Assembly (NCBI RefSeq): GCF_000186265.1
Contig: NC_014934.1
Location: 4,774,001 to 4,838,000 of the forward strand
DNA: 64,000 nt
DNA from: Cellulophaga algicola DSM 14237
GTDB lineage: Bacteria > Bacteroidota > Bacteroidia > Flavobacteriales > Flavobacteriaceae
Reading direction: 5' to 3'
Part shown: piece by piece, positions 42,050 through 53,268 of the stretch
How positions within the stretch are numbered: the stretch's first letter is position 1
Layout of the letters: each line of letters opens with the position of its first letter
Position numbers and translations under genes: made by a program
The notes under the pieces: model-generated
Seen by the model: only the letters and a program-made list of their open reading frames with translations
Told to the model about the DNA's origin: nothing
Databases searched by the model: none

Positions 42050-44332
42050 TTATTTGAAACAATAAGGACCTGACCACTCATAATCCTTATTGTTAATTTT
42101 TAAGTTATGCTTTGCCTCTTTACCAGCGTTCGTGTTTGCTGTTATAAACAGTTTAGTAGTACCGTTTACATTGGTTATTGCTATCGCTGTATAATCTTCT
42201 GTATCTAAAACTACTTTTAATGCTGTAATAGCACTGTTAGAATTAACTGCAGATTCTGTAACTGGACTATAACTTCCGTGTGCTTCAATGGCAGAAACAA
42301 AAAGTGTGTTTTGAGTGTTTTTTCGCCTTAACATTAAAGCAGCTTCGCGTCGCAAATTAAATTCTGGATCGTTTGCACCAATTCTTGTAAAAAGTAACTC
42401 ATCCGTATTGCCTGTTATTGTTGTTAGTGTATAAAACTTACCTTTATTTAACCAAGAAAATTTAGTGTTCTCCGTTTCAGATTTCGCTGTACCTTCTACA
42501 TATAAATGTTGATACCCATTTTTGCTTCCCAAAGCTTTTAAGGTTTCCGGCACTTTATATTCGAAATTTGTATTCAATACTTGTCCTAAAAAGTAATACG
42601 GAAAATCATACTGATTTGCTTTATTAGAAACTACCTTCATAATATCTAATACATATGGTTTTTCAAAATCTGGATCTTTAATAATTGCCATCGTACGAAG
42701 CATTTCAGTTCCTGGATATGCATTTACTTCTTTTGCGCTAGCTGCTTGAACGTTATCATTTTCTGATGAAAAATAATGCAATACAGAATGGTTTTGACTT
42801 CCTATTTCATATTTCCCATTAAAATGAGACATTTCATTTTGTGTCACGGTATTGTGTGCAATCGTTTGTTTGGCCCAAGTTTTATTTTCCTTTAGGTAAT
42901 TCCCTCCCCCTTTTTGTTCGATATTTACAAAACGTGCTAAACCATAATCTTGAATCACTTCTTCCCCATTTTCATATAATGAATAGGATAACTTATCATA
43001 ATGCCCGTGACTAGAGCCTTGTGCTGCATATTTAAAAACAAGTTCTATGTCTTCATTTCTTAAAATACCAACTCCACCTTGTGTGCCCTCTGGTCCATCT
43101 GATAAGTTAATTGATTTTTTATCGAATGGTTTTGCCAATCCATTTTTTATACCAAGTGCAACTGCCAAGCCCGAATCATCTAATAATACTTTATTTTGTT
43201 TTTCAGCGATACTTAACAATCCTGGATCTTGTGTTCCAAAATAATACGAAATATCTGTCGCCGTAACTAAAGCATCATTATAGTAAGACATTCCTTTTTG
43301 ACCATCATTTAACGGAAAAAAATCACCATCTGCATCCGATAAATTTAGAAGAGCATTAATTGACTTCAATAACACTCCTTCTTTATACTCAAATATTTTT
43401 AATTCTGGTTTAACGTTATGTAATCCTTCCGCAAAAATTAAAAAAGGATACATCGCATAGCGTTGGTAATATGGTCCTTCATTATAATAACCATCTGGAG
43501 AGAAAGGCTCTTCTATATTCGCTAAAAAACCAGCTTTACCGTCTTTATTTAAAAAGCCCCCATCGTCATCTTTTTCTTTCGTATCTAATTTTAGATCTTT
43601 AATTCCGTATAAAGCACGATCAATTAATTCTTGGTCGTTCATTACCAAACCAATCATCCCAACAGCTGCATTTCCCCAAGTACTATGGTTGTGAACTCTT
43701 TGGTAAAATTGCGGACTATCTACAGATATATGATCTGCAAATGGTTTAAATAAGTTAGTTTCAAGTTTATTACGTTCTTCTTCAGATAAATAATTGTAGA
43801 CACAATCATACGCTTGACTCACATAAACCAACCAATTAGCATCATTTAAACATTGCCAAAATAATTTTCCTCGTGCATAAGATCTAGTTTTTGGATGCAA
43901 TGGCAATGTTTTATACATTGCTTCATATTGCATGAGCATGTCTTTTACGTATTTCGCATATTTTTCATCATCCAAAATTTGATATAAAACACCGGCTTTT
44001 TGCAATATTATCATATTACTCTTGTGCCTAACATGTGTATAACCCCCTGAATAATCTTCAGGAATTGGCGTATCTATCCCTAAAAAAATTTCAGCATCTA
44101 CCTCCTCCTGAACAGCTTTTAAAGTAGCATCAAAAATTGGAATATTCCCTAATTGTGCCCTAATATCTTTAACCCCTTGCGCTGTTAAAATTAAATTAGG
44201 GTGTGCTCCTTGCTCTGAGGCTGTCTTGTCTTCTTCTTTTGAAACTACCGTTACTTCTTCTTTACAAGAAAATAGGCTTATAAGGAGTACAGCAGGCACG
44301 AGTTTTAATGTGATACTTTGTATGAACTTCAT
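42050..44332 (-). CDS. Polysaccharide lyase family 17 oligoalginate lyase
   Basis: A 760-residue lipoprotein (signal ending LFSC) with an N-terminal (alpha/alpha) toroid and a C-terminal heparinase II/III-like beta-sandwich. Likely catalytic residues are Asn215-His216 in RVHNHSTWGNA and a Tyr in GYYNEGPYYQRYA (Tyr288 or 289); GSSHGHYDKLSYSL marks the C-terminal part. PL17 enzymes work exolytically and release unsaturated monomers, probably in the periplasm here. Placed 2 bp after the PL6 gene and 22 bp before kdgF. Confidence 0.93.
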   Translation of the reverse strand: MKFIQSITLKLVPAVLLISLFSCKEEVTVVSKEEDKTASEQGAHPNLILTAQGVKDIRAQLGNIPIFDATLKAVQEEVDAEIFLGIDTPIPEDYSGGYTHVRHKSNMIILQKAGVLYQILDDEKYAKYVKDMLMQYEAMYKTLPLHPKTRSYARGKLFWQCLNDANWLVYVSQAYDCVYNYLSEEERNKLETNLFKPFADHISVDSPQFYQRVHNHSTWGNAAVGMIGLVMNDQELIDRALYGIKDLKLDTKEKDDDGGFLNKDGKAGFLANIEEPFSPDGYYNEGPYYQRYAMYPFLIFAEGLHNVKPELKIFEYKEGVLLKSINALLNLSDADGDFFPLNDGQKGMSYYNDALVTATDISYYFGTQDPGLLSIAEKQNKVLLDDSGLAVALGIKNGLAKPFDKKSINLSDGPEGTQGGVGILRNEDIELVFKYAAQGSSHGHYDKLSYSLYENGEEVIQDYGLARFVNIEQKGGGNYLKENKTWAKQTIAHNTVTQNEMSHFNGKYEIGSQNHSVLHYFSSENDNVQAASAKEVNAYPGTEMLRTMAIIKDPDFEKPYVLDIMKVVSNKANQYDFPYYFLGQVLNTNFEYKVPETLKALGSKNGYQHLYVEGTAKSETENTKFSWLNKGKFYTLTTITGNTDELLFTRIGANDPEFNLRREAALMLRRKNTQNTLFVSAIEAHGSYSPVTESAVNSNSAITALKVVLDTEDYTAIAITNVNGTTKLFITANTNAGKEAKHNLKINNKDYEWSGPYCFK

Positions 44333-44334
44333 AA

Positions 44335-46668
44335 TTAGTTATTGGCAATAATTCCTATTTCTTTTTGGTCTGTTCCTTTTCCTAATAAAGAAGACTCTTC
44401 TGTTAATTCAAACGTTCCTTCTTTAAAAGTTGGTTCTATATTATAAAGGTTTTTTATATTATACTTTTCATCACCAGTCACTTCAATTTCACCTGACTTG
44501 TAATAATCATTATTTATAACATTTACAATTGGTTCTCCAACTACTAAGTGCATTTTTAAACCCTTAGTATTATTAAAAATATTGTTTTCTATATCATTTA
44601 CTTGAACACCATATAAAGACATCGCGGCGTTATATTTATTTTTCTTACCAAAACCTACATTATTGAACACATTGTGGTCTACTTCTAAAAATGGACCGAA
44701 AGTACTTTCATCTTTTCCACCTCTGTATAGCCTTAGAGCAGCACCTTCCATATCTGTAACGGTATTGTTTTTCATTAGCATATATTCAACATTATACGCT
44801 CCAATATCATCTGTTTCGGTATCTAACGCAGCAATGTGTCCAGAAATATTTTTGAATGTAGAATTTTGAATACTAATGGTATCTGCAAATGTTCCTTTAG
44901 ATACTCTTAAAACATCAAAAGAATGATTGACCACCATATCTTTAAATTCGCAGTTATCAATAAACAGCTTGTAATTGTCTAACATGGAATTTTTACTGGT
45001 ACTGATTACTGAATTACCAGCATAGTCTGGAGATTTTGTACCGTCAAAAGTTATATTTTCTAACCATAGACTTCCTCCATTTTGAATTTCAAAAGCCATC
45101 ATGCGTTCAAATAATATGGTTGCTTTTTTTGTTCCTGAGGTTTTAAATGTCAATGGGTGATTAATTTGAACCGCTTTCGTGATTAAATAGGTTCCACCCT
45201 CTTCTAATGCTATAATATCTCCAGCTTCAGATTCTTTTACAATCTCGTATAAGGTATTAATCCCAGCGTCTACTTTTATTGTTTTTCCTGAGTTTAGAGC
45301 AACACCTGTATCTGCTTTAGAATACCAAGTTGTTCCTGTATTTTCTTTGGTCGCTATATTTGGACTAATCGTAACCTTATTTTTTATTTTAGCTGAAGTA
45401 GGAATCAAGAACCCTTGTTCGTTTTTAACTAAAGTGATTGCCGCATTTTCAAATCCGCTAGAAATACTCGTTTCTCCATTTTCACCTAAAAGATTATCTT
45501 TAAATGTAATACCACTTATATCAGCATCAATAGTAAATATGTCTTTTATCTTATCATTATAAATGATATTTCCAGAAAACTCAGAAGTTCTTGGTGCTTG
45601 ACTTCTTTCAGAATCATTTCCAGCTCCAAATAAGATATGATCACAATTAATAAACGTGTTGTTGTTTGCTTTGGAATTAATTACGGGCACATAACGATTT
45701 GGAGATGAATTTGGAACACCATTCATCATTACAAAGGCTCCTCTAAAACGGTATCCTGTTAAACCAATATGGTAGTTATTAATTACGGTTTGTTTTTCGT
45801 TAATAATACGAACACCTCCAGTGCTTGGTTTTCCGTTACCAATAAAAACGTTACCATCTACTAAGGTTTCATTTCCATGACGCATGGTTAAGGTTCCTGT
45901 GCATTCAAAAAATGTATTGTATTTAAAAGTATTTTGACAAGATTTGTTAGATATAATTTCGTGTTCGCCATTGGTTCTATCAAAATAGTTAGATTCCACC
46001 AAGGTATTAGAGTTTTCTAAAGCTGTATGACTAGTACCTATGCGTAATGTTTCTCCTCCATTATTTCCAAAGGTTGGACGTGGGCCAAAATAATTGTGAT
46101 CAATTTTATGATTATTCTGTATGCTTTCTTTTGTATCTAAACCAACAATCATGGTTACCCCTAAATTCTTTTTACCTACAATATGATTGTGATCTATACG
46201 GTTATTTTTACCATAAATGGTAACCCAGTAATCTTGCACTTGACGTTCTGGATTATTAAAATTATCAATAACACATTCTGTTAAACGTGAATTGTTAGCC
46301 ATTTCTTCTCTGTTTTTTCTAAAAGAAACAACAGCATTTGTTGGTGTGTATCCATTTTTAAAAACAAGCCCACTAACAATTAAATGCTCACCCGCTAATT
46401 GAAGATTTGAAGCGCCTTCTAAAATTACCTTTCCTTTATCTTCTACTGTTAATGTAATAGGATTTTCGTTAGTTCCTTTACCCTCAAAAACAAGTTCTGC
46501 ATCTTTCCAAATACCGTTTGCCAAAACAATAGAATCTCCTGGTTGTAAATTCTTAACCATTTCATTAAATTCTTCGACATTATTTGCCATCTCAATTTTT
46601 TGAGATTCTGGATTACAAGAAGTGAACACCACCACGAGTAATATTATTGACAATACACTATGTTTCAT
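44335..46668 (-). CDS. Polysaccharide lyase family 6 alginate lyase, two-domain form
   Basis: A 777-residue lipoprotein (signal ending FTSC) with two parallel beta-helix domains (about 25-410 and 450-777), like the long PL6 enzymes of marine bacteria. The N-terminal domain keeps the catalytic Lys in ISNKSCQN (Lys242) and Arg in TMRHGN (Arg263). It cleaves alginate, probably poly-guluronate or oligomers, and works with PL17 downstream. It is first in a PL6-PL17-kdgF operon whose promoter carries GntR sites. Confidence 0.9.
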   Translation of the reverse strand: MKHSVLSIILLVVVFTSCNPESQKIEMANNVEEFNEMVKNLQPGDSIVLANGIWKDAELVFEGKGTNENPITLTVEDKGKVILEGASNLQLAGEHLIVSGLVFKNGYTPTNAVVSFRKNREEMANNSRLTECVIDNFNNPERQVQDYWVTIYGKNNRIDHNHIVGKKNLGVTMIVGLDTKESIQNNHKIDHNYFGPRPTFGNNGGETLRIGTSHTALENSNTLVESNYFDRTNGEHEIISNKSCQNTFKYNTFFECTGTLTMRHGNETLVDGNVFIGNGKPSTGGVRIINEKQTVINNYHIGLTGYRFRGAFVMMNGVPNSSPNRYVPVINSKANNNTFINCDHILFGAGNDSERSQAPRTSEFSGNIIYNDKIKDIFTIDADISGITFKDNLLGENGETSISSGFENAAITLVKNEQGFLIPTSAKIKNKVTISPNIATKENTGTTWYSKADTGVALNSGKTIKVDAGINTLYEIVKESEAGDIIALEEGGTYLITKAVQINHPLTFKTSGTKKATILFERMMAFEIQNGGSLWLENITFDGTKSPDYAGNSVISTSKNSMLDNYKLFIDNCEFKDMVVNHSFDVLRVSKGTFADTISIQNSTFKNISGHIAALDTETDDIGAYNVEYMLMKNNTVTDMEGAALRLYRGGKDESTFGPFLEVDHNVFNNVGFGKKNKYNAAMSLYGVQVNDIENNIFNNTKGLKMHLVVGEPIVNVINNDYYKSGEIEVTGDEKYNIKNLYNIEPTFKEGTFELTEESSLLGKGTDQKEIGIIANN

Positions 46669-46912: not shown

Positions 46913-47545
46913 ATGATAAAAGATTTAATTGATAATTACGGAACTATTTTTGAAAAAGAACTAATTGAAGAAATTGTTCAAGTAGGAACTTTTAAAGAAG
47001 TACCCGAAGGTTTTAAATTAATTGAAATTGGTGAATACATTAAAAGTATGCCTTTACTAATTTCTGGGGCTATAAAAATATTAAGAGAAGATAAAGATGG
47101 TGATGAACTCTTATTGTATTATTTAGAAAAAGGAGATACCTGTTCTATGACGCTCAGCTGCTGCTTATCACAATCTATTAGTGAAATTAGAGCTATAGCG
47201 GAAACAGAAACTAAATTAATCATGGTTCCTGTTCAAAAAATGGAAGAATGGACAGCGAAATATAAATCCTGGCGAAATTTTGTTTTTGAAAGTTATCACA
47301 ATAGGCTAACCGAACTTTTAACTACTATTGATTCTATAGCTTTCCAGAATATGGATGAACGCTTATTGGGATATTTAAAAGAAAAAATCAGAATTACAAA
47401 CGACAGCACCATACATAACACACACCAACAAATAGCTTACGATTTACACAGTTCTAGAGTAGTAATTTCTAGACTATTAAAAAAACTAGAAGAATTAGGA
47501 AAAATAGAATTACACCGTAATTTCATCAAAGTAATTAATTTATAA
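46913..47545 (+). CDS. Crp/Fnr-family transcriptional regulator
   Basis: The 210-residue regulator has an N-terminal cyclic-nucleotide-binding-like beta-barrel (about 20-120) and a C-terminal winged helix (about 150-205, HQQIAYDLHSSRVVISRLLKKLEELGKI). Cys77, Cys83 and Cys84 lie together in the barrel (DTCSMTLSCC), which suggests redox or metal sensing, but no Fnr-type N-terminal Cys cluster is present. Palindromes near the rhodanese, sulfite dehydrogenase and cydA promoters are likely targets. Confidence 0.9.
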   Translation: MIKDLIDNYGTIFEKELIEEIVQVGTFKEVPEGFKLIEIGEYIKSMPLLISGAIKILREDKDGDELLLYYLEKGDTCSMTLSCCLSQSISEIRAIAETETKLIMVPVQKMEEWTAKYKSWRNFVFESYHNRLTELLTTIDSIAFQNMDERLLGYLKEKIRITNDSTIHNTHQQIAYDLHSSRVVISRLLKKLEELGKIELHRNFIKVINL

Positions 47546-47550
47546 GTTGT

Positions 47551-47594
47551 GTAACTTATGTTACTTCCATTTTTATAAACAACCCTTAATTTTA
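47551..47594 (+). promoter_or_regulatory. Crp/Fnr-type activator site and promoter upstream of the rhodanese gene
   Basis: GTAACTTATGTTAC (47551-47564), 22 bp, then TAATTTTA (47587-47594). The spacing puts the palindrome centre near -41 and matches two other promoters in the window exactly. Confidence 0.65.
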
Positions 47595-47599
47595 CAATA

Positions 47600-47688
47600 A
47601 TAAATTAAAACTATTTAGTAGTTTAAAATTTATTGGTTGGTTGTTTTAATGGAAGTAGTAATGTGGTTGTGACTACTTCCTTTTTTTT
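47600..47688 (+). ncRNA. Candidate Crp/Fnr-activated small RNA or attenuated rhodanese leader
   Basis: From the promoter box at 47587-47594 transcription should begin near 47600. A terminator hairpin follows, GGAAGTAGT (47651-47659) / ACTACTTCC (47672-47680) with eight T residues, ending 15 bp before the rhodanese ATG. The product would be about 88 nt. It could be a free small RNA or an attenuator of the downstream gene. Alternatively it is only the terminator of the crp gene. Confidence 0.45.
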
Positions 47689-47703
47689 AAAAATATATAA
47701 ATT

Positions 47704-48042
47704 ATGTCATTCTTAAATTTTCTATTTGGAACTGCTAAATCCGATAGTATAAAAACTATAAATGCTGCAGAATACAAAGTCGCTATTACCACTAAAAATA
47801 TTCAATTAGTAGATGTTAGAACTCCTAATGAATACGCTAAAGGTGCTATTAAGAAGGCGGTTAATATCGATTTCTTCAATGCTTCTTTTTTTGAAAGTGC
47901 TTTTAATAAATTTAATAAGGAAGCGCCGATCTATATCTACTGTCAATCTGGTATGCGAAGTAAAAGAGCAGCCAAAAAGCTCGACAAAATGGGTTTTACA
48001 ACTATAATTGATTTAAAAGGTGGCTATATGGCCTATGCATAA
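47704..48042 (+). CDS. Rhodanese-like sulfurtransferase
   Basis: A 112-residue single-domain rhodanese with LVDVRTPNEYAKGAI and active-site Cys80 in YCQSGMRSKRAA. Such proteins carry sulfane sulfur on the Cys and take part in thiosulfate or persulfide transfer. There is no signal peptide, so it is probably cytoplasmic. Its promoter matches that of the nearby sulfite dehydrogenase operon, which suggests a shared sulfur or oxygen response. Confidence 0.9.
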   Translation: MSFLNFLFGTAKSDSIKTINAAEYKVAITTKNIQLVDVRTPNEYAKGAIKKAVNIDFFNASFFESAFNKFNKEAPIYIYCQSGMRSKRAAKKLDKMGFTTIIDLKGGYMAYA

Positions 48043-48088
48043 AATAACTAAGGTTAAGATTAAAAACCTTAACCTTAGTTATTTTTTA
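48042..48088. terminator. Bidirectional terminator between convergent genes
   Basis: A 17-bp stem, AAATAACTAAGGTTAAG with its complement, separates the rhodanese gene from the minus-strand hydroxylase gene and overlaps the latter's stop region. Confidence 0.85.
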
Positions 48089-48954
48089 ACCCCTCTAAAA
48101 CCTTCCATATTCTGGTGAATAAAATCTTTAGGAAACTCATCATCACCCTTAAATCCTAACTCAATAGTACCACTTTCTTCAGGGATATAATTTGTTTTAA
48201 ATATATAATCCCAAATACTTAAGCTTATACCAAAGTTTACACCATAGGTGCCCTTGGGTAAATCATAGGCATGATGGTACAAATGCATTACTGGATTATT
48301 TACAAGATATTTAAAAGGGCCCCATGTAATTTTTATGTTCGAATGATTGAAATGGCCTATTGTAATTGCTATAAAATGAACAATATAAGCTTGTTCTGGC
48401 TCAAAGCCCCCCAAGATCATAACCCCAAAAGTTTTTAATGGTTTGTATAAGATATTTTCCATCCAATGATACCTTAAATGAGCAGCAAAGCCCATCTCTT
48501 TTACGCTATGGTGTACTTTATGAAAATTCCACAAAAACTCATATTTATGAAGCAAGGTGTGCGTAAACCACTGTACAAAGTCTAAAATAATAAAGAATAG
48601 TAGTAATTGCGCCCAATTAGGCCAATTAGAAAAATCTATTAATGTAAGGCTAGATGCGCTAATTCCTAAGTCTGAAAAGAACTTTTCTAATATTTTATAA
48701 AATCCACTTATCACAATTACAAAAAGGAAGAAATTAAAAAACATATAAAAACCATCTAACCAAAAATCTTTTCTGAAAACAGACTGATTTTTTCGCCATG
48801 GGAATGCAATTTCTAAACCCCAAACTAGTGTTGAGATTAAAATTAATCCCCAAAAATAATTCGTATACCAAGGCACTTCAAAAGTTATAGATTTCCAAGT
48901 CCAATTAATGGTACCCATAAAGGTTTTTATAAAAATAGTTGCATACTCTTCCAT
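48079..48954 (-). CDS. Fatty acid hydroxylase / sterol desaturase superfamily membrane protein
   Basis: A 291-residue membrane protein with histidine boxes HTLLH, HKVHH, HFNHSN and HLYHH, ligands for a di-iron centre, and several hydrophobic helices. It differs clearly from the protein at 1753-2712. It sits last in a run after the molybdoenzyme and cytochrome c genes (11 bp after the cytochrome), so it may be part of the same electron-transfer unit; the substrate is unknown. Confidence 0.85.
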   Translation of the reverse strand: MEEYATIFIKTFMGTINWTWKSITFEVPWYTNYFWGLILISTLVWGLEIAFPWRKNQSVFRKDFWLDGFYMFFNFFLFVIVISGFYKILEKFFSDLGISASSLTLIDFSNWPNWAQLLLFFIILDFVQWFTHTLLHKYEFLWNFHKVHHSVKEMGFAAHLRYHWMENILYKPLKTFGVMILGGFEPEQAYIVHFIAITIGHFNHSNIKITWGPFKYLVNNPVMHLYHHAYDLPKGTYGVNFGISLSIWDYIFKTNYIPEESGTIELGFKGDDEFPKDFIHQNMEGFRGVKK

Positions 48955-48965
48955 TCTAACAAGCT

Positions 48966-49448
48966 CTATTCTTTGAGTTCATACCATTCTACATTTTCTA
49001 AATTAGCTCTACGTCCTATTTGATTAGGCGCATAATACGTACTCAAATAATTTAATATAGGTTCTTCATTTACTCCTAAATCCCATAAATTCTGAGTTTC
49101 TTGCATCCATCTAATTGTTGCTAACCATTTTTCTTTAGACATTCTATTCTGCGTCACTAATTTAGCGGAATGACAACTGGTACAATTTTGCACGACCAAC
49201 AGCAATCCCTCACCTTCTACAAAACCTGTTCGCACATGAATACCATTTTCTATTTTGTCTAAATCGTCTTCCTGAGTGGGCACCTCAACATAATCAGGAG
49301 GTAGCACTGGGGAATTGGTCGTACTAGTTGTAGCATCCTTAATCGTAAAAAAAAGAATTATGAGTACGCCTATAAAACCTATCAGTAGAATTGTTAATAG
49401 GGTATGAATACCCTTAACGCTTTGTTTAAATTTTTCCTCTACTCCCAT
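48966..49448 (-). CDS. Membrane-anchored c-type cytochrome, probable sulfite dehydrogenase subunit
   Basis: The 160-residue protein has one N-terminal helix (LLTILLIGFIGVLIILFF) that anchors a periplasmic domain, with the heme site CTSCH (Cys89, Cys92, His93) and Met103 as possible distal ligand. It is adjacent to the molybdoenzyme gene (1 bp apart or less), matching the SorA-SorB arrangement in which a cytochrome accepts electrons from sulfite oxidation. Confidence 0.88.
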   Translation of the reverse strand: MGVEEKFKQSVKGIHTLLTILLIGFIGVLIILFFTIKDATTSTTNSPVLPPDYVEVPTQEDDLDKIENGIHVRTGFVEGEGLLLVVQNCTSCHSAKLVTQNRMSKEKWLATIRWMQETQNLWDLGVNEEPILNYLSTYYAPNQIGRRANLENVEWYELKE

Positions 49449-50669
49449 TTAAACAACTTTAACAGCAATTCTATGACATGCATTATTTAAATATCCTTTA
49501 GGATTCCAGCCGGGAACAAGCATAGGTTGAGAAAGCCCATCGCTATCTGTCGCTTTTGCCCATACCTCATAATACCCTTTTTGGGGAAATTGTATTTGAG
49601 CAGAAAAATGTTGCCATGCAAAACGATTCACTTCTTTCTCTAAAGCACAACTACTCCACGTACTACCAAAATCAATAGAATATTCAACCTTAGAAACATT
49701 TAATTCTCCCGCCCATGCATGACCTCTAATGGTTAATTGCTTATTTATACTTAAAGTAGCTCCAGATTTAGGATAGGTTACTAAAGACTTTACAGGCATA
49801 GATTCTATTATGCGCATATCTTCTTCTTTAACTGTGGTACCGGGTGCCACAGGATTTTTAGGAACTTTATAAGAGCTGCCTGTCATTTTCTCTCCGTCAT
49901 GTACTATATTCCGAACACTAATTCTATTCAACCATTTTCCAGAAGCAGAGGCGGGATAACCACCGGCTATAAGCCGCAATGGGTAGCCATGAGTTAACGG
50001 AATATCTTCTCCGTTCATTTTAAAAGCTAAAATAGTTTCCTCTTGTAAGGCTTTTTCTAAGGGCACCCCACGTGATATAGGCTCTTTACTAGGATCTCCA
50101 CTTAAATGTGTGTCTGCAGCATGATACCCAATATAAACTGCGTTTGGTTTTAGTCCTACCTCAGCCAAAACATCTTTTAAACGAATTCCCGTCCATTTTG
50201 CTGAAGATACCGCTCCGATAGTCCATTGATTGCCTTTTGCAGGCGGATTAAACTCACTACGCCCATTCCCTCCACATTCTAAGGTTAGCTGATAGGTATA
50301 ATGTTTAAATTTGGACTTAAGTTCACTTAACGTAAATATCTTTTTAGTAGTTACAGATTCCCCTTCTAAAGTTAAAGTCCAATTCTCAAAATCTATATGT
50401 TCAGGGATTTTTCCATTATTACGAATAAACATTGCAGAATTAGGAGTAACCTTATCGTCTAATACATGTGCCTGTGCTTCTATATTCCAAGGCTTATCAT
50501 TTAACACAAGCATATCCTTATCTAAATTAAATAATTTAAAAGGATCTGTTTCTTGTATTGCTAAGGGGATATAGGCCTCTGGAAGTAAATTTCCAAACAC
50601 AATATCTATTCCTAGAATTCCTGTCAGCGTAGCTAAAGATGACCTTGTAATAAACTTTCTTCTTTCCAT
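49449..50669 (-). CDS. Sulfite oxidase-family molybdopterin enzyme
   Basis: A 406-residue periplasmic molybdoenzyme with a Tat-like leader (ERRKFITRSS), the sulfite oxidase fold and the Mo-ligating Cys132 in LTLECGGNGRSEF, then a C-terminal Ig-like dimerisation domain (about 290-400). It is closest in layout to SorA/SoxC proteins. Sulfite oxidation with electrons passed to the adjacent cytochrome c is the most likely reaction; SoxC-like roles cannot be excluded. It begins the operon. Confidence 0.88.
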   Translation of the reverse strand: MERRKFITRSSLATLTGILGIDIVFGNLLPEAYIPLAIQETDPFKLFNLDKDMLVLNDKPWNIEAQAHVLDDKVTPNSAMFIRNNGKIPEHIDFENWTLTLEGESVTTKKIFTLSELKSKFKHYTYQLTLECGGNGRSEFNPPAKGNQWTIGAVSSAKWTGIRLKDVLAEVGLKPNAVYIGYHAADTHLSGDPSKEPISRGVPLEKALQEETILAFKMNGEDIPLTHGYPLRLIAGGYPASASGKWLNRISVRNIVHDGEKMTGSSYKVPKNPVAPGTTVKEEDMRIIESMPVKSLVTYPKSGATLSINKQLTIRGHAWAGELNVSKVEYSIDFGSTWSSCALEKEVNRFAWQHFSAQIQFPQKGYYEVWAKATDSDGLSQPMLVPGWNPKGYLNNACHRIAVKVV

Positions 50670-50694
50670 AGGATCACATCGTAGTTTAAGCTTC

Positions 50695-50738
50695 TAAAAA
50701 TACTGAATTTTAGGCTACATTTAGGTAACAATAGTTAC
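50695..50738 (-). promoter_or_regulatory. Crp/Fnr-type activator site and promoter of the sulfite dehydrogenase operon
   Basis: On the minus strand GTAACTATTGTTAC (50738-50725) is followed after exactly 22 bp by TATTTTTA (50702-50695), 25 bp before the start codon. Confidence 0.65.
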
Positions 50739-50781
50739 AGAAGACGATAGAAGCCGCAAATACGTTAAATAACTTAAATAT

Positions 50782-50825
50782 GTAACCAATGTTACCTTCG
50801 AAGTTAGGTTTGATGCTTATTTTTA
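50782..50825 (+). promoter_or_regulatory. Crp/Fnr-type activator site and promoter of cydAB
   Basis: GTAACCAATGTTAC (50782-50795) is followed after exactly 22 bp by TATTTTTA (50818-50825), 32 bp before the cydA ATG. Confidence 0.65.
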
Positions 50826-50857: not shown

Positions 50858-52189
50858 ATGGAAGACATGCTTTTCTACGATAGAATACAATTTGCATTCA
50901 CAATCACCTTTCATTATTTGTTCCCACAACTTACCATGGGATTATCTCTTTTGATAGTTTATTACAAAGGAAAATTTTTGTTTAACAAAGAAGAAATTTA
51001 CAACGACGCTGCTAAATTTTGGATGAAGATATTTGCTTTAAATTTCGCAATGGGTGTTGTTACTGGTATTCCAATGGAATTCCAATTTGGAACCAATTGG
51101 GCTAAATTTTCTGAACTTACTGGAGGTATTATAGGACAAACACTTGCCATGGAAGGCATGTTCTCATTTTTCTTAGAATCTTCATTTCTAGGGCTTTTTA
51201 TTTTTGGAGAAAAACTATTAGGTCACAAACTACATTTTGTAACAGGCTTCTTGGTATTCTTAGGTTCTTGGGCGAGTGGTTATCTAATTATTGCTACGCA
51301 TTCCTGGATGCAACACCCTGTTGGCTTTGAAATTTTAGAAAACGGAAAATTTGTCTTGACTAATTTTGGTGCCTTGTTTTCTAACCCCTGGTTGCTCCCT
51401 TCTTATTTACACAATCAATTAGCCTCTTTAGTTACCGCCTCATTTGTAATGGCCGCTATTGGTGCCTTTTATATTTTAAATGATAAGCATCATGCTTTTG
51501 GCAAATTATTTGTAAAAACTGGAGTGATTTTTGGCTTTGTTGCTAGTGTCTTGGTTGCCGTTCCTACTGGAGATCTAGCTGCGAAGAATGTGGTAAAATA
51601 TCAACCTGCAACTTTTGCTGCAATGGAAGGAATTTTTGAAACGGAAGAAGGTGGTTCAGAGATTGTTTTAATTGGTCAACCCAACATTGTTGATAAAAAA
51701 TTAGACAACAAAATTGCAGTACCTAACATTTTAAGTTTTCTAACATATCAAAAGTGGGATGCGCAAATAAAAGGTTTAAATGAATTTGATGAAGCTGTAC
51801 ATCCTACAAATATCCCAGGGCTGTATTATGCCTATCATATTATGGTTGGTTTAGGGACCATTTTTATTGGATTATTATTCTTTGCTATTGTGCAATTATT
51901 TAGAAAAAAATTATACGAAACAAAATGGATTCTATATTCCTTGGTCTTTCTCTTACCTTTTCCTTATATCGCCAATACTATGGGCTGGTATACCGCAGAA
52001 TTAGGCAGACAGCCTTGGTTGGTGTTTAATTTGCTAAGAACAAGCGCAGGTGCTTCTCCAACAGTATCCGCTGGAAATACACTTTTTACACTTTTAGGAT
52101 TCGTAGGTCTATATCTACTGCTTGGATTACTATTTTTAATATTGGCGGGTAAAATAATTAACAAAGGACCTCAACTTGTAAAACACTAA
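50858..52189 (+). CDS. cydA: Cytochrome bd ubiquinol oxidase subunit I
   Basis: A 443-residue polytopic membrane protein that binds the three hemes of cytochrome bd. The b595 ligand is His19 in QFAFTITFHYLFPQLTMG; other conserved segments are FQFGTNWAKFSE, GWYTAELGRQPW and the Gln-loop region. It is shorter than E. coli CydA (about 520), consistent with the short Q-loop form. The operon is presumably activated by low oxygen through the adjacent regulator site. Confidence 0.96.
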   Translation: MEDMLFYDRIQFAFTITFHYLFPQLTMGLSLLIVYYKGKFLFNKEEIYNDAAKFWMKIFALNFAMGVVTGIPMEFQFGTNWAKFSELTGGIIGQTLAMEGMFSFFLESSFLGLFIFGEKLLGHKLHFVTGFLVFLGSWASGYLIIATHSWMQHPVGFEILENGKFVLTNFGALFSNPWLLPSYLHNQLASLVTASFVMAAIGAFYILNDKHHAFGKLFVKTGVIFGFVASVLVAVPTGDLAAKNVVKYQPATFAAMEGIFETEEGGSEIVLIGQPNIVDKKLDNKIAVPNILSFLTYQKWDAQIKGLNEFDEAVHPTNIPGLYYAYHIMVGLGTIFIGLLFFAIVQLFRKKLYETKWILYSLVFLLPFPYIANTMGWYTAELGRQPWLVFNLLRTSAGASPTVSAGNTLFTLLGFVGLYLLLGLLFLILAGKIINKGPQLVKH

Positions 52190-52191
52190 TT

Positions 52192-53268
52192 ATGGAACTA
52201 TTTTGGTACATCGTTTTAATGACCATGCTTGCGGTTTATGTTATCTTAGATGGCTATGACTTTGGAGCTGGAATTATTCATCTATTCTTTGCTAAAACAG
52301 AAAAAGATAAAAAAGCAATTACAAATTCCATTGGCCCTTTCTGGGATGCAAATGAAGTATGGTTAATTGCCACTGGAGGTGTTTTATTCTTTGCCTTCCC
52401 TACACTTTATGCCTCTTCTTTTAGCGGGTTTTACTTGCCCCTAATGATGATCTTATGGCTATTAATCTTTAGAGCAATAGGCTTAGAACTCAGAGGACAG
52501 GTACATAATGCTATGTGGGAAGCTATTTGGGATAAAGCCTTTGGGATCTCTAGTTTACTTTTAGCTTTATTTTTTGGGGTTGCTCTAGGTAATATTGTTC
52601 GTGGCGTAAACTTAGGTATCGTTACAGAAGGCGTATCTACACAAGAGGCTCATTACTTTTTTCTCCCGTTGTGGAACCCTACATTTAGTCCGCAAGCAGA
52701 ACACTTAGGAATCCTTGATTGGTTTACAGTATTATTAGGTATAATCGGTGTAGTTTCCCTAACCATACACGGCGCCAACTGGATTATTTTTAAAACAAAT
52801 TCTGATCTTAATGAAAAATTAAAGACCGTTATTTTTAGACTGAATTTTGTATTGCTTGCTTTGGTCATCATCTCCTTATCTGTTTGGCATGTTATAGAAC
52901 CTAAACCATTTCAAAATTTCTTAAGCACTCCATGGCTTTGGATTTTCCCGCTACTCACTTTTATTGGTTTATTTGGGCTGTTTAATGTCAAAAAATTTAA
53001 AAGAGATGGATTGGGATTTTTGTTTTCTTCCGTATTCTTATTTGGAGGATTAACCACAACAGTAGCATCAATTTTTCCAAAGGTATTACCCTCTACAAAT
53101 GATATAAATCCTAGTTTAACCATTTACAACGTCGCTGCAGACGAATATGGCCTTTCCGTAGGTATTTATTGGTTTGTTATTGCAATTGTACTTGTAGCCA
53201 TCTATATGATCATTCAATACAGGGTTTTCAAAGGTAAAATGGATGATGTTGGATATGGAGAGCATTGA
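52192..53268 (+). CDS. cydB: Cytochrome bd ubiquinol oxidase subunit II
   Basis: The 358-residue membrane partner of CydA, with eight or more helices. It begins with LFWYIVLMTMLAVYVILDGYDFGAGI and has GPFWDANEVWLIATGGVLFFAFPTLYA, both family signatures. It lies 2 bp after cydA in the same operon. No small CydX-like frame was seen downstream. Confidence 0.95.
   Translation: MELFWYIVLMTMLAVYVILDGYDFGAGIIHLFFAKTEKDKKAITNSIGPFWDANEVWLIATGGVLFFAFPTLYASSFSGFYLPLMMILWLLIFRAIGLELRGQVHNAMWEAIWDKAFGISSLLLALFFGVALGNIVRGVNLGIVTEGVSTQEAHYFFLPLWNPTFSPQAEHLGILDWFTVLLGIIGVVSLTIHGANWIIFKTNSDLNEKLKTVIFRLNFVLLALVIISLSVWHVIEPKPFQNFLSTPWLWIFPLLTFIGLFGLFNVKKFKRDGLGFLFSSVFLFGGLTTTVASIFPKVLPSTNDINPSLTIYNVAADEYGLSVGIYWFVIAIVLVAIYMIIQYRVFKGKMDDVGYGEH

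Follow-up and report, generated by a model that had tools for sequence, protein, structure and literature searches.

Crp/Fnr-type oxygen sensors such as FNR and FnrP are class II activators with cydAB-type targets and the operator TTGAT, and the [4Fe-4S] cluster of FNR has four cysteine ligands, three of them near the N terminus. CstR is a regulator of the CsoR type. HcpR2 is a Crp/Fnr-family regulator with the published consensus GTAACnnnnGTTAC, an operator tied to hcp and to a Glu181 to Pro change (PMC1274295, 2005). FisR, BigR/SqrR and CstR have sulfide:quinone reductase (SQR), persulfide dioxygenase, TauE and YeeE/YedE among their targets (PMC7315123, PMC9774590), and in SqrR and CstR reactive sulfur is sensed through sulfur bridges that form between cysteines (PMC9774590). 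Here we describe a Crp/Fnr-family regulator of Cellulophaga algicola DSM 14237 and its candidate promoters, located in a stretch of 64,000 nucleotides (contig NC_014934.1, positions 4,774,001 to 4,838,000, forward strand; hereafter, the window). The palindrome GTAAC-N4-GTTAC precedes the rhodanese gene next to the regulator gene, a sulfite dehydrogenase (sor) operon and cydAB (Table 1). We consider it probable that the regulator, through one fixed promoter layout, activates a regulon for sulfane-sulfur oxidation and clearance together with bd respiration, likely in response to sulfane sulfur. In marine Flavobacteriaceae, such a regulon would convert reactive sulfur, which is toxic, to sulfate, which is not.

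The locus resembles that of HcpR2 in the regulator family, in the palindrome and in having a residue other than Glu at the position of CRP Glu181, which is Val183 in a HMMER alignment. Likeness to FisR, BigR/SqrR and CstR lies in the targets, and SqrR, BigR and CstR sense through cysteines, as we propose here. However, FisR is a sigma-54 activator and SqrR/BigR are ArsR-type repressors, whereas the regulator described here is of the Crp/Fnr type with class II geometry. It also differs from FNR and FnrP, with no four-cysteine cluster (its only cysteines are residues 77, 83 and 84) and GTAAC instead of TTGAT in the operator. The best match among solved structures, the uncharacterised Crp/Fnr protein 3dv8, has cysteines aligned with Cys77 and Cys83, but carries Glu instead of Val183 and lacks Cys84. 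While the operator is an already known DNA word, neither a description of this regulator subfamily with its sulfur regulon nor a regulator of the Flavobacteriaceae sulfide response turned up in searches of an open-access library that does not cover most subscription papers.

A fixed promoter layout and its conservation

The initial annotation, made from the sequence of the window, reported three copies of the palindrome, each followed after exactly 22 bp by a sequence resembling the -7 box and centred near -41, the position of a class II activator. All three copies are confirmed, each with its box at exactly that distance, and no further exact copy is present in the window. In Bacteroidetes promoters, positions -34/-33 are the end of the -33 element, and an operator centred at -41.5 is the class II activator arrangement. 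If the box is placed like the sigma-A box TAnnTTTG of Flavobacterium psychrophilum, at -12 to -5 (PMC9723704), the 22-bp spacing brings the centre of the palindrome to -41.5 and the conserved TG that follows it to -34/-33. From this geometry we infer class II activation at the three promoters, with the predicted starts given in Table 1. An operator reaching to approximately -35 could also block the polymerase, and the protein might then be a repressor or a dual regulator; the centre at exactly -41.5 and the preserved TG, which together form the class II arrangement, make this quite improbable.

Table 1. Features of the regulator locus in the window and related sites elsewhere in the same genome
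Feature	Coordinates	Strand	Details
Crp/Fnr-family regulator, 210 amino acids	46913..47545	+	PF00027, HTH_Crp_2
Operator 1, GTAACTTATGTTAC	47551..47564	+	5' of rhodanese gene; exact match; weight-matrix score 35.1
-7 box TAATTTTA	47587..47594	+	22 bp past operator 1; predicted +1 ~47599
Terminator-like leader element	47633..47688	+	UUGGUUGGUU 47633-47642, stem 47651-47660/47671-47680, T-run; between promoter 1 and rhodanese ATG
Single-domain rhodanese (sulfurtransferase), 112 amino acids	47704..48042	+	PF00581, E 6.3e-21
Third sor operon gene, fatty-acid-hydroxylase family	48079..48954	-	PF04116
SorB-like c-type cytochrome subunit	48966..49448	-	NF052246 SorB E 4.4e-5, below cut-off; no Pfam match; CTSCH heme motif
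SorA-like molybdopterin sulfite dehydrogenase	49449..50669	-	PF00174, PF03404; NF052245 SorA E 8.3e-71, below curated cut-off
-7 box TATTTTTA, sulfite dehydrogenase operon	50695..50702	-	predicted +1 ~50690
Operator 2, GTAACTATTGTTAC on - strand	50725..50738	-	5' of sorA; exact match; weight-matrix score 32.2
Operator 3, GTAACCAATGTTAC	50782..50795	+	5' of cydAB; exact match; weight-matrix score 33.2
-7 box TATTTTTA, cydAB	50818..50825	+	predicted +1 ~50830
cydA, cytochrome bd oxidase subunit I	50858..52189	+	PF01654, E 4.6e-141
cydB, cytochrome bd oxidase subunit II	52192..53268	+	PF02322, E 3.3e-80
Composite site 5' of MBL-fold + rhodanese protein	L002:2464-3870 (gene)		own genome
Composite site 5' of SulP transporter	L002:4014-5738 (gene)		own genome
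Composite site 5' of TolC-type outer-membrane efflux gene	L008		own genome
Near-match GTGAC-N4-GTTAC, box at 22 bp	G000 position 1007151		own genome; 5' of DUF983 gene (PF06170)

The layout is conserved in stretches around the best 80 of 263 confirmed regulator relatives (flanks reaching at most 6 kb; 948,195 bp altogether). These contain 232 palindromes, versus 6, 0 and 2 for three rearranged palindromes, and TAnnTTT follows the palindrome, counting both strands, 201 times at an offset of 22 and 0-10 times at each other offset from 0 to 44. Composite sites, with palindrome and box at 22 bp, are found within the fetched flanks of 79 of the 80 relatives, L086 being the one without. A logo of 206 distinct contexts, preselected for the palindrome and TAnnTTT and not for the flanking T, the TG or the final G/A, reads T-GTAAC-YWWK-GTTAC-TG, approximately 20 unconserved bases and TAnTTT(G/A); the flanking T reaches 97%, and positions 14 and 15 are T and G in 66% and 62%, respectively. 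Operator, box and distance are thus kept over a nearly unconserved spacer. The spacer varies in sequence and not in length, so common descent by itself is not a sufficient explanation of the pattern, and selection acting on the geometry is indicated rather than mere relatedness.

In the whole Cellulophaga genome, there are 14 exact palindromes versus 6 matches to the reversed pattern, and seven palindromes with TAnnTTT 21-23 bp away versus none for the reversed control. Six of the seven have a spacing of exactly 22 bp, and all six are intergenic, although one shares four bases with the 3' end of the sulP open reading frame (ORF); the seventh (23 bp) is inside an ORF. The eight palindromes other than these six, the 23-bp one among them, are inside ORFs and do not have the 22-bp box spacing. 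One mismatch adds four composites, one upstream of a DUF983 gene, two in or across ORFs and one being the sor palindrome read in the opposite direction. With a weight matrix derived from 195 distinct sites of the window and the 80 relatives, a training set that includes the three window sites, the next-best score in the window is 9.6, and no place scores above 9 in 16 other stretches of the same genome (74,164 bp). Among 100 Flavobacteriaceae genomes, the composite site is found in 68 (208 sites versus 5 reversed controls). The whole-genome scan proposed in the initial annotation thus returns six intergenic composites at 22 bp, and a random scatter of the motif is ruled out by the counts in this genome, in the relatives and in the family, as well as by the weight matrix.

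The adjacent Crp/Fnr protein as the likely regulator

The presence of the site follows that of the regulator. When the 100 family genomes are grouped by the E value of their best regulator homolog, 57 of the 59 with a close homolog (E up to 1e-65) have the composite, as against one of eight with a weak homolog and one of 16 with none (57/59 versus 2/24; Fisher p 1e-15, with 17 intermediate genomes left out of the test). The regulator has a C77-X5-C83-C84 arrangement in the phosphate-binding-cassette region and the recognition helix SSRVVISR; C77, C83, C84, V183, S186 and R187 do not vary in any of the 81 close sequences compared. The best relative of the regulator is 99% identical and belongs to Cellulophaga baltica DSM 24729. 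The initial annotation took the adjacent protein, with its Cys77/83/84, to be the natural candidate, and genome distribution and invariant cysteines alike mark it as the likely regulator. The protein is the single match to itself at E<=1e-20 in its own genome, among 15 matches to the cyclic-nucleotide (cNMP)-binding domain. This number of paralogs, and low-identity homologs elsewhere that adjoin similar sites, would leave room for another Crp/Fnr protein as the one that binds. Such a substitution appears scarcely credible, considering how well the close regulator predicts the site, the composites flanking 79 of the 80 relatives, and the position of 50 of 209 scored sites upstream of the regulator gene itself. 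At the regulator's own promoter in the window, no palindrome with two or fewer mismatches was found between 44254 and 47551.

Deeper homologs were represented by 20 stretches, 15 with regulators at 46-52% identity and five at 34-37%. In the former, the helix S-R-V-V-(I/V)-S-R is present in 15/15, all three cysteines in 13/15, a YeeE-like neighbour in 15/15, and TauE and MBL-rhodanese neighbours as well in 13/15. At 34-37% identity, four of five homologs have R-E-V-I-S-R, and genes of the sulfur reference set adjoin none of these four; L238, the fifth, combines R-V-V-V-S-R with TauE, peroxiredoxin and MBL-rhodanese-like neighbours. Sites scoring above 9 occur at three of the five (L238, L239 and L241), with scores of up to 26.7 in L241.

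The regulator does not look like a cAMP-binding CRP. The residues that contact cAMP in CRP, Glu72, Arg82 and Ser83 (CRP numbering), align in HMMER with Met79, Ile89 and Ser90. What is expected of a thiol sensor, a conserved cysteine pair, is found in all 81 close homologs in the form of Cys77/83/84.

Target genes

Around the regulator genes, 209 sites have a scored downstream ORF (own genome included; nine sites are without an ORF). The targets are rhodaneses or MBL-rhodanese proteins (77), the regulator itself within 450 bp (50), TauE (32), SulP (14), peroxiredoxin (9), fatty-acid hydroxylase (4), SQR-like proteins (4), cydA (3), sorA (3), TolC (3) and smaller groups of others. Of the 50 sites before the regulator gene, 17 are direct and 33 are separated from it by an ORF of 90 residues or more, which in the one representative checked (L013) encodes DUF983. 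Single representatives were assigned by Pfam to TauE (PF01925), peroxiredoxin (PF00578), YeeE-like (PF04143) and YgaP-like (PF11127) proteins, and the SQR-like representative matches type III sulfide:quinone reductase at E 2.7e-66, below the cut-off. The gene order sorA-sorB-fatty-acid hydroxylase is kept in stretches L109 and L115. The MBL-rhodanese protein of C. algicola matches the sulfur-transferase/dioxygenase Blh weakly (57 bits; cut-off 625); from its domains and neighbours we read it as persulfide-dioxygenase-like. Sites elsewhere were sampled in 55 stretches of other family genomes, a non-random set consisting mostly of isolated sites among those listed, with 65 composites; 39 of these precede an ORF or operon that matches the reference set (E 1e-5).

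These lists alter the picture of a small regulon of three operons that joins sulfur metabolism with high-affinity oxygen respiration, as drawn initially. The co-regulated set stands, but it is larger, comprising six exact composites and one near-match (DUF983) in this genome and many more operons in relatives, and oxygen respiration gives way as its theme to the handling of sulfide, persulfide and sulfite. Cluster regulators with three cysteines exist, and the three invariant cysteines of this protein, with another ligand, could hold an Fe-S cluster. The same activator and regulon would then answer to oxygen limitation, towards which the initial annotation points, or to nitric oxide; cydAB is a classical low-oxygen target, and the sulfur genes would follow the build-up of sulfide at low oxygen. 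We consider this unlikely, as there are only three cysteines and none in an FNR-like N-terminal cluster, cydA is the target at just 3/209 and 2/65 sites, with sulfur genes far commoner, and hcp was not found in the 100 family genomes. By analogy with Acinetobacter baumannii, in which cydAB, described as refractory to H2S, increases with sulfide (PMC7315123), cytochrome bd fits better here as a sulfide-resistant oxidase than as part of a low-oxygen response, and would belong in the sulfur set for that reason.

Another reading takes the sites as plain HcpR2 operators and the protein as HcpR2, a regulator of nitrosative stress, and the exact agreement with the published consensus (PMC1274295) speaks for it. 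However, hcp (TIGR01703, E 0.001) was found in 0/100 family genomes and not in the C. algicola genome, whereas 5/14 control genomes match. Val183, invariant in 81/81, stands where Pro is given for HcpR2, and the targets are largely sulfur genes instead of the hcp of the HcpR2 regulons predicted in the published description. We therefore consider this reading highly improbable. Across the phylum, hcp is present in 33 of 148 genomes, all 33 in other families, and 30 Bacteroidota hcp loci with short flanks contained no Crp-type ORF of 170-280 amino acids and no exact palindrome.

Proposed mechanism and points against it

In the mechanism we favour, activation in response to sulfane sulfur, the 46913-47545 protein would bind T-GTAAC-N4-GTTAC-TG as a dimer centred at -41.5, at sigma-A promoters in which the operator has mostly replaced the -33 element. 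Bound regulator would contact RNA polymerase and activate the genes of sulfane-sulfur oxidation and clearance. MBL-rhodanese enzymes and rhodaneses are predicted to convert persulfide to sulfite, and SorAB sulfite to sulfate; TauE, SulP, YeeE and TolC/RND would move sulfur compounds across the membrane, and a sulfide-resistant cytochrome bd would keep respiration going. The signal, persulfide or polysulfide, may modify Cys77, Cys83 and/or Cys84 in a degenerate nucleotide-binding pocket. Persulfide sensing by these residues is likely because persulfide and sulfite are what the targets remove, the cysteines are invariant in 81/81 sequences, and two of the cAMP-contact positions are changed (Met79, Ile89).

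Several observations weigh against this mechanism. The AlphaFold model of the regulator has a mean pLDDT (predicted local distance difference test) of 80.8 and is good outside the cysteine loop, but loop 74-84 is below 50, so that distances between the cysteines cannot be read from it. Position 89 is Lys in 68/81 relatives and Ser90 is retained; hence, the nucleotide pocket has degenerated less fully in the group than in this protein. Among the 46-52% homologs, L230 lacks Cys83 and Cys84 and L228 lacks Cys84 despite sulfur neighbours, and sites scoring above 9, drifted (e.g. TGTGAC-N4-GTCACA) or exact, are present in 11 of the 15 stretches. L239 and L241 have a similar site next to a homolog with the REVISR helix, so helix and operator map uncleanly and the groups cannot be told apart by the sequence of the helix alone. 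The exact composite is found in just 9 of the 17 genomes with intermediate homologs (E 1e-65 to 1e-50). Once mismatches are allowed in the C. algicola genome, the excess is lost: one mismatch in the palindrome gives 164 matches versus 230 for the reversed control, and two or fewer in the composite give 41 versus 39, so that only exact and near-exact composites are informative in this single genome. SQR, found under the motif elsewhere, has no close relative in this genome, where one weak partial match was found (34% over 110 residues). Of the 65 sites sampled elsewhere, 19 are followed by ORFs that the reference set does not contain and seven have no ORF, and the TolC, DUF983 and fatty-acid-hydroxylase targets have at most a putative sulfur role. 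By Pfam or NCBIfam, the outside-set ORFs include thioredoxin-9 (L125, L133), DsrE-like (L123, below the cut-off; L127), DUF302 (L128) and a PhsA-like molybdoenzyme (L135, below the cut-off) proteins, whereas the first ORF of L122 and that of L154 have no match; the rest were judged at most by eye.

Recurrent small targets, leader element and neighbouring genes

Some proteins recur under the operator. One is a thioredoxin-9-family protein of approximately 205 amino acids, assigned by Pfam in L125 and L133 and by eye in L118, L136, L143 and L152. The operator-led operon L122:945-2255 encodes a small cysteine-containing protein that matches nothing in Pfam and, judged by eye, a DoxX-like membrane protein and one resembling DsrE; ORFs that look similar by eye are found in L111 and L144. 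A small DUF983 protein with paired cysteines stands under the operator just before the regulator gene in L013 (5604-5990) and, at a place away from the regulator gene, in the C. algicola genome (L188:2060-2461).

The rhodanese leader contains a terminator-like hairpin. In 30 aligned leaders, hand-chosen from 53 matches, both sides of the stem change in 10/10 pairs (44 cells versus 11.8 +/- 2.8 when shuffled), the stem having been picked on the same alignment. The hairpin lies 65-118 bp downstream of the palindrome in the window and in L011, L012, L014, L030, L033, L047, L056, L061, L079 and L087, and one of the same form precedes the site instead in L020, L038 and L051. A covariance model of the element has matches in 43/100 family genomes; many of the 30 loci read are just past a gene end, and 12 of 30 are unplaced, on the other strand. 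The matches at the ends of other genes lead us to read the element as terminator-type. A dedicated small regulatory RNA in the rhodanese leader was rejected, since the same form of UUGGUUGGUU plus hairpin occurs at other gene ends, and in Rfam the one match, to PreQ1 and within the regulator ORF, fell short of the threshold. Possible roles of the element are attenuation of rhodanese expression or the release of a short RNA. In Bacteroides, an RNA that acts together with HcpR is described in a 2026 preprint (PMC13370916). Just 3' of several unrelated Flavobacteriaceae genes (L162-L187), we also observed the UUGGUUGGUU box with hairpin and T-run, as if the intrinsic terminators of this family carried a conserved upstream box. 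On the other side of the regulator, two minus-strand genes of 760 and 777 amino acids (42050-46668) adjoin it and look by eye like polysaccharide lyases, perhaps for alginate.

Significance

With a likely regulator, an operator defined to the base and a target list now named, the question becomes directly testable. The sequence GTAAC-N4-GTTAC, published for the control of hcp, should not be read as a sign of nitrosative stress by default. Our results suggest a reactive-sulfur sensor from a protein family so far not known to act in this way. If the sensing is true, Crp/Fnr proteins would join the known persulfide sensors, and this one would be a Crp-type protein that functions with neither cAMP nor an Fe-S cluster of the classical four-cysteine kind. 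Seawater and algal surfaces, habitats in which Flavobacteriaceae abound, commonly contain sulfide and other reduced sulfur. We lean, if only slightly, towards the broader view that a Crp/Fnr sensor of sulfane sulfur, with C-X5-C-C in the former nucleotide pocket, may be the master switch, across much of the Flavobacteriaceae, for detoxifying sulfide and for respiration that resists it.

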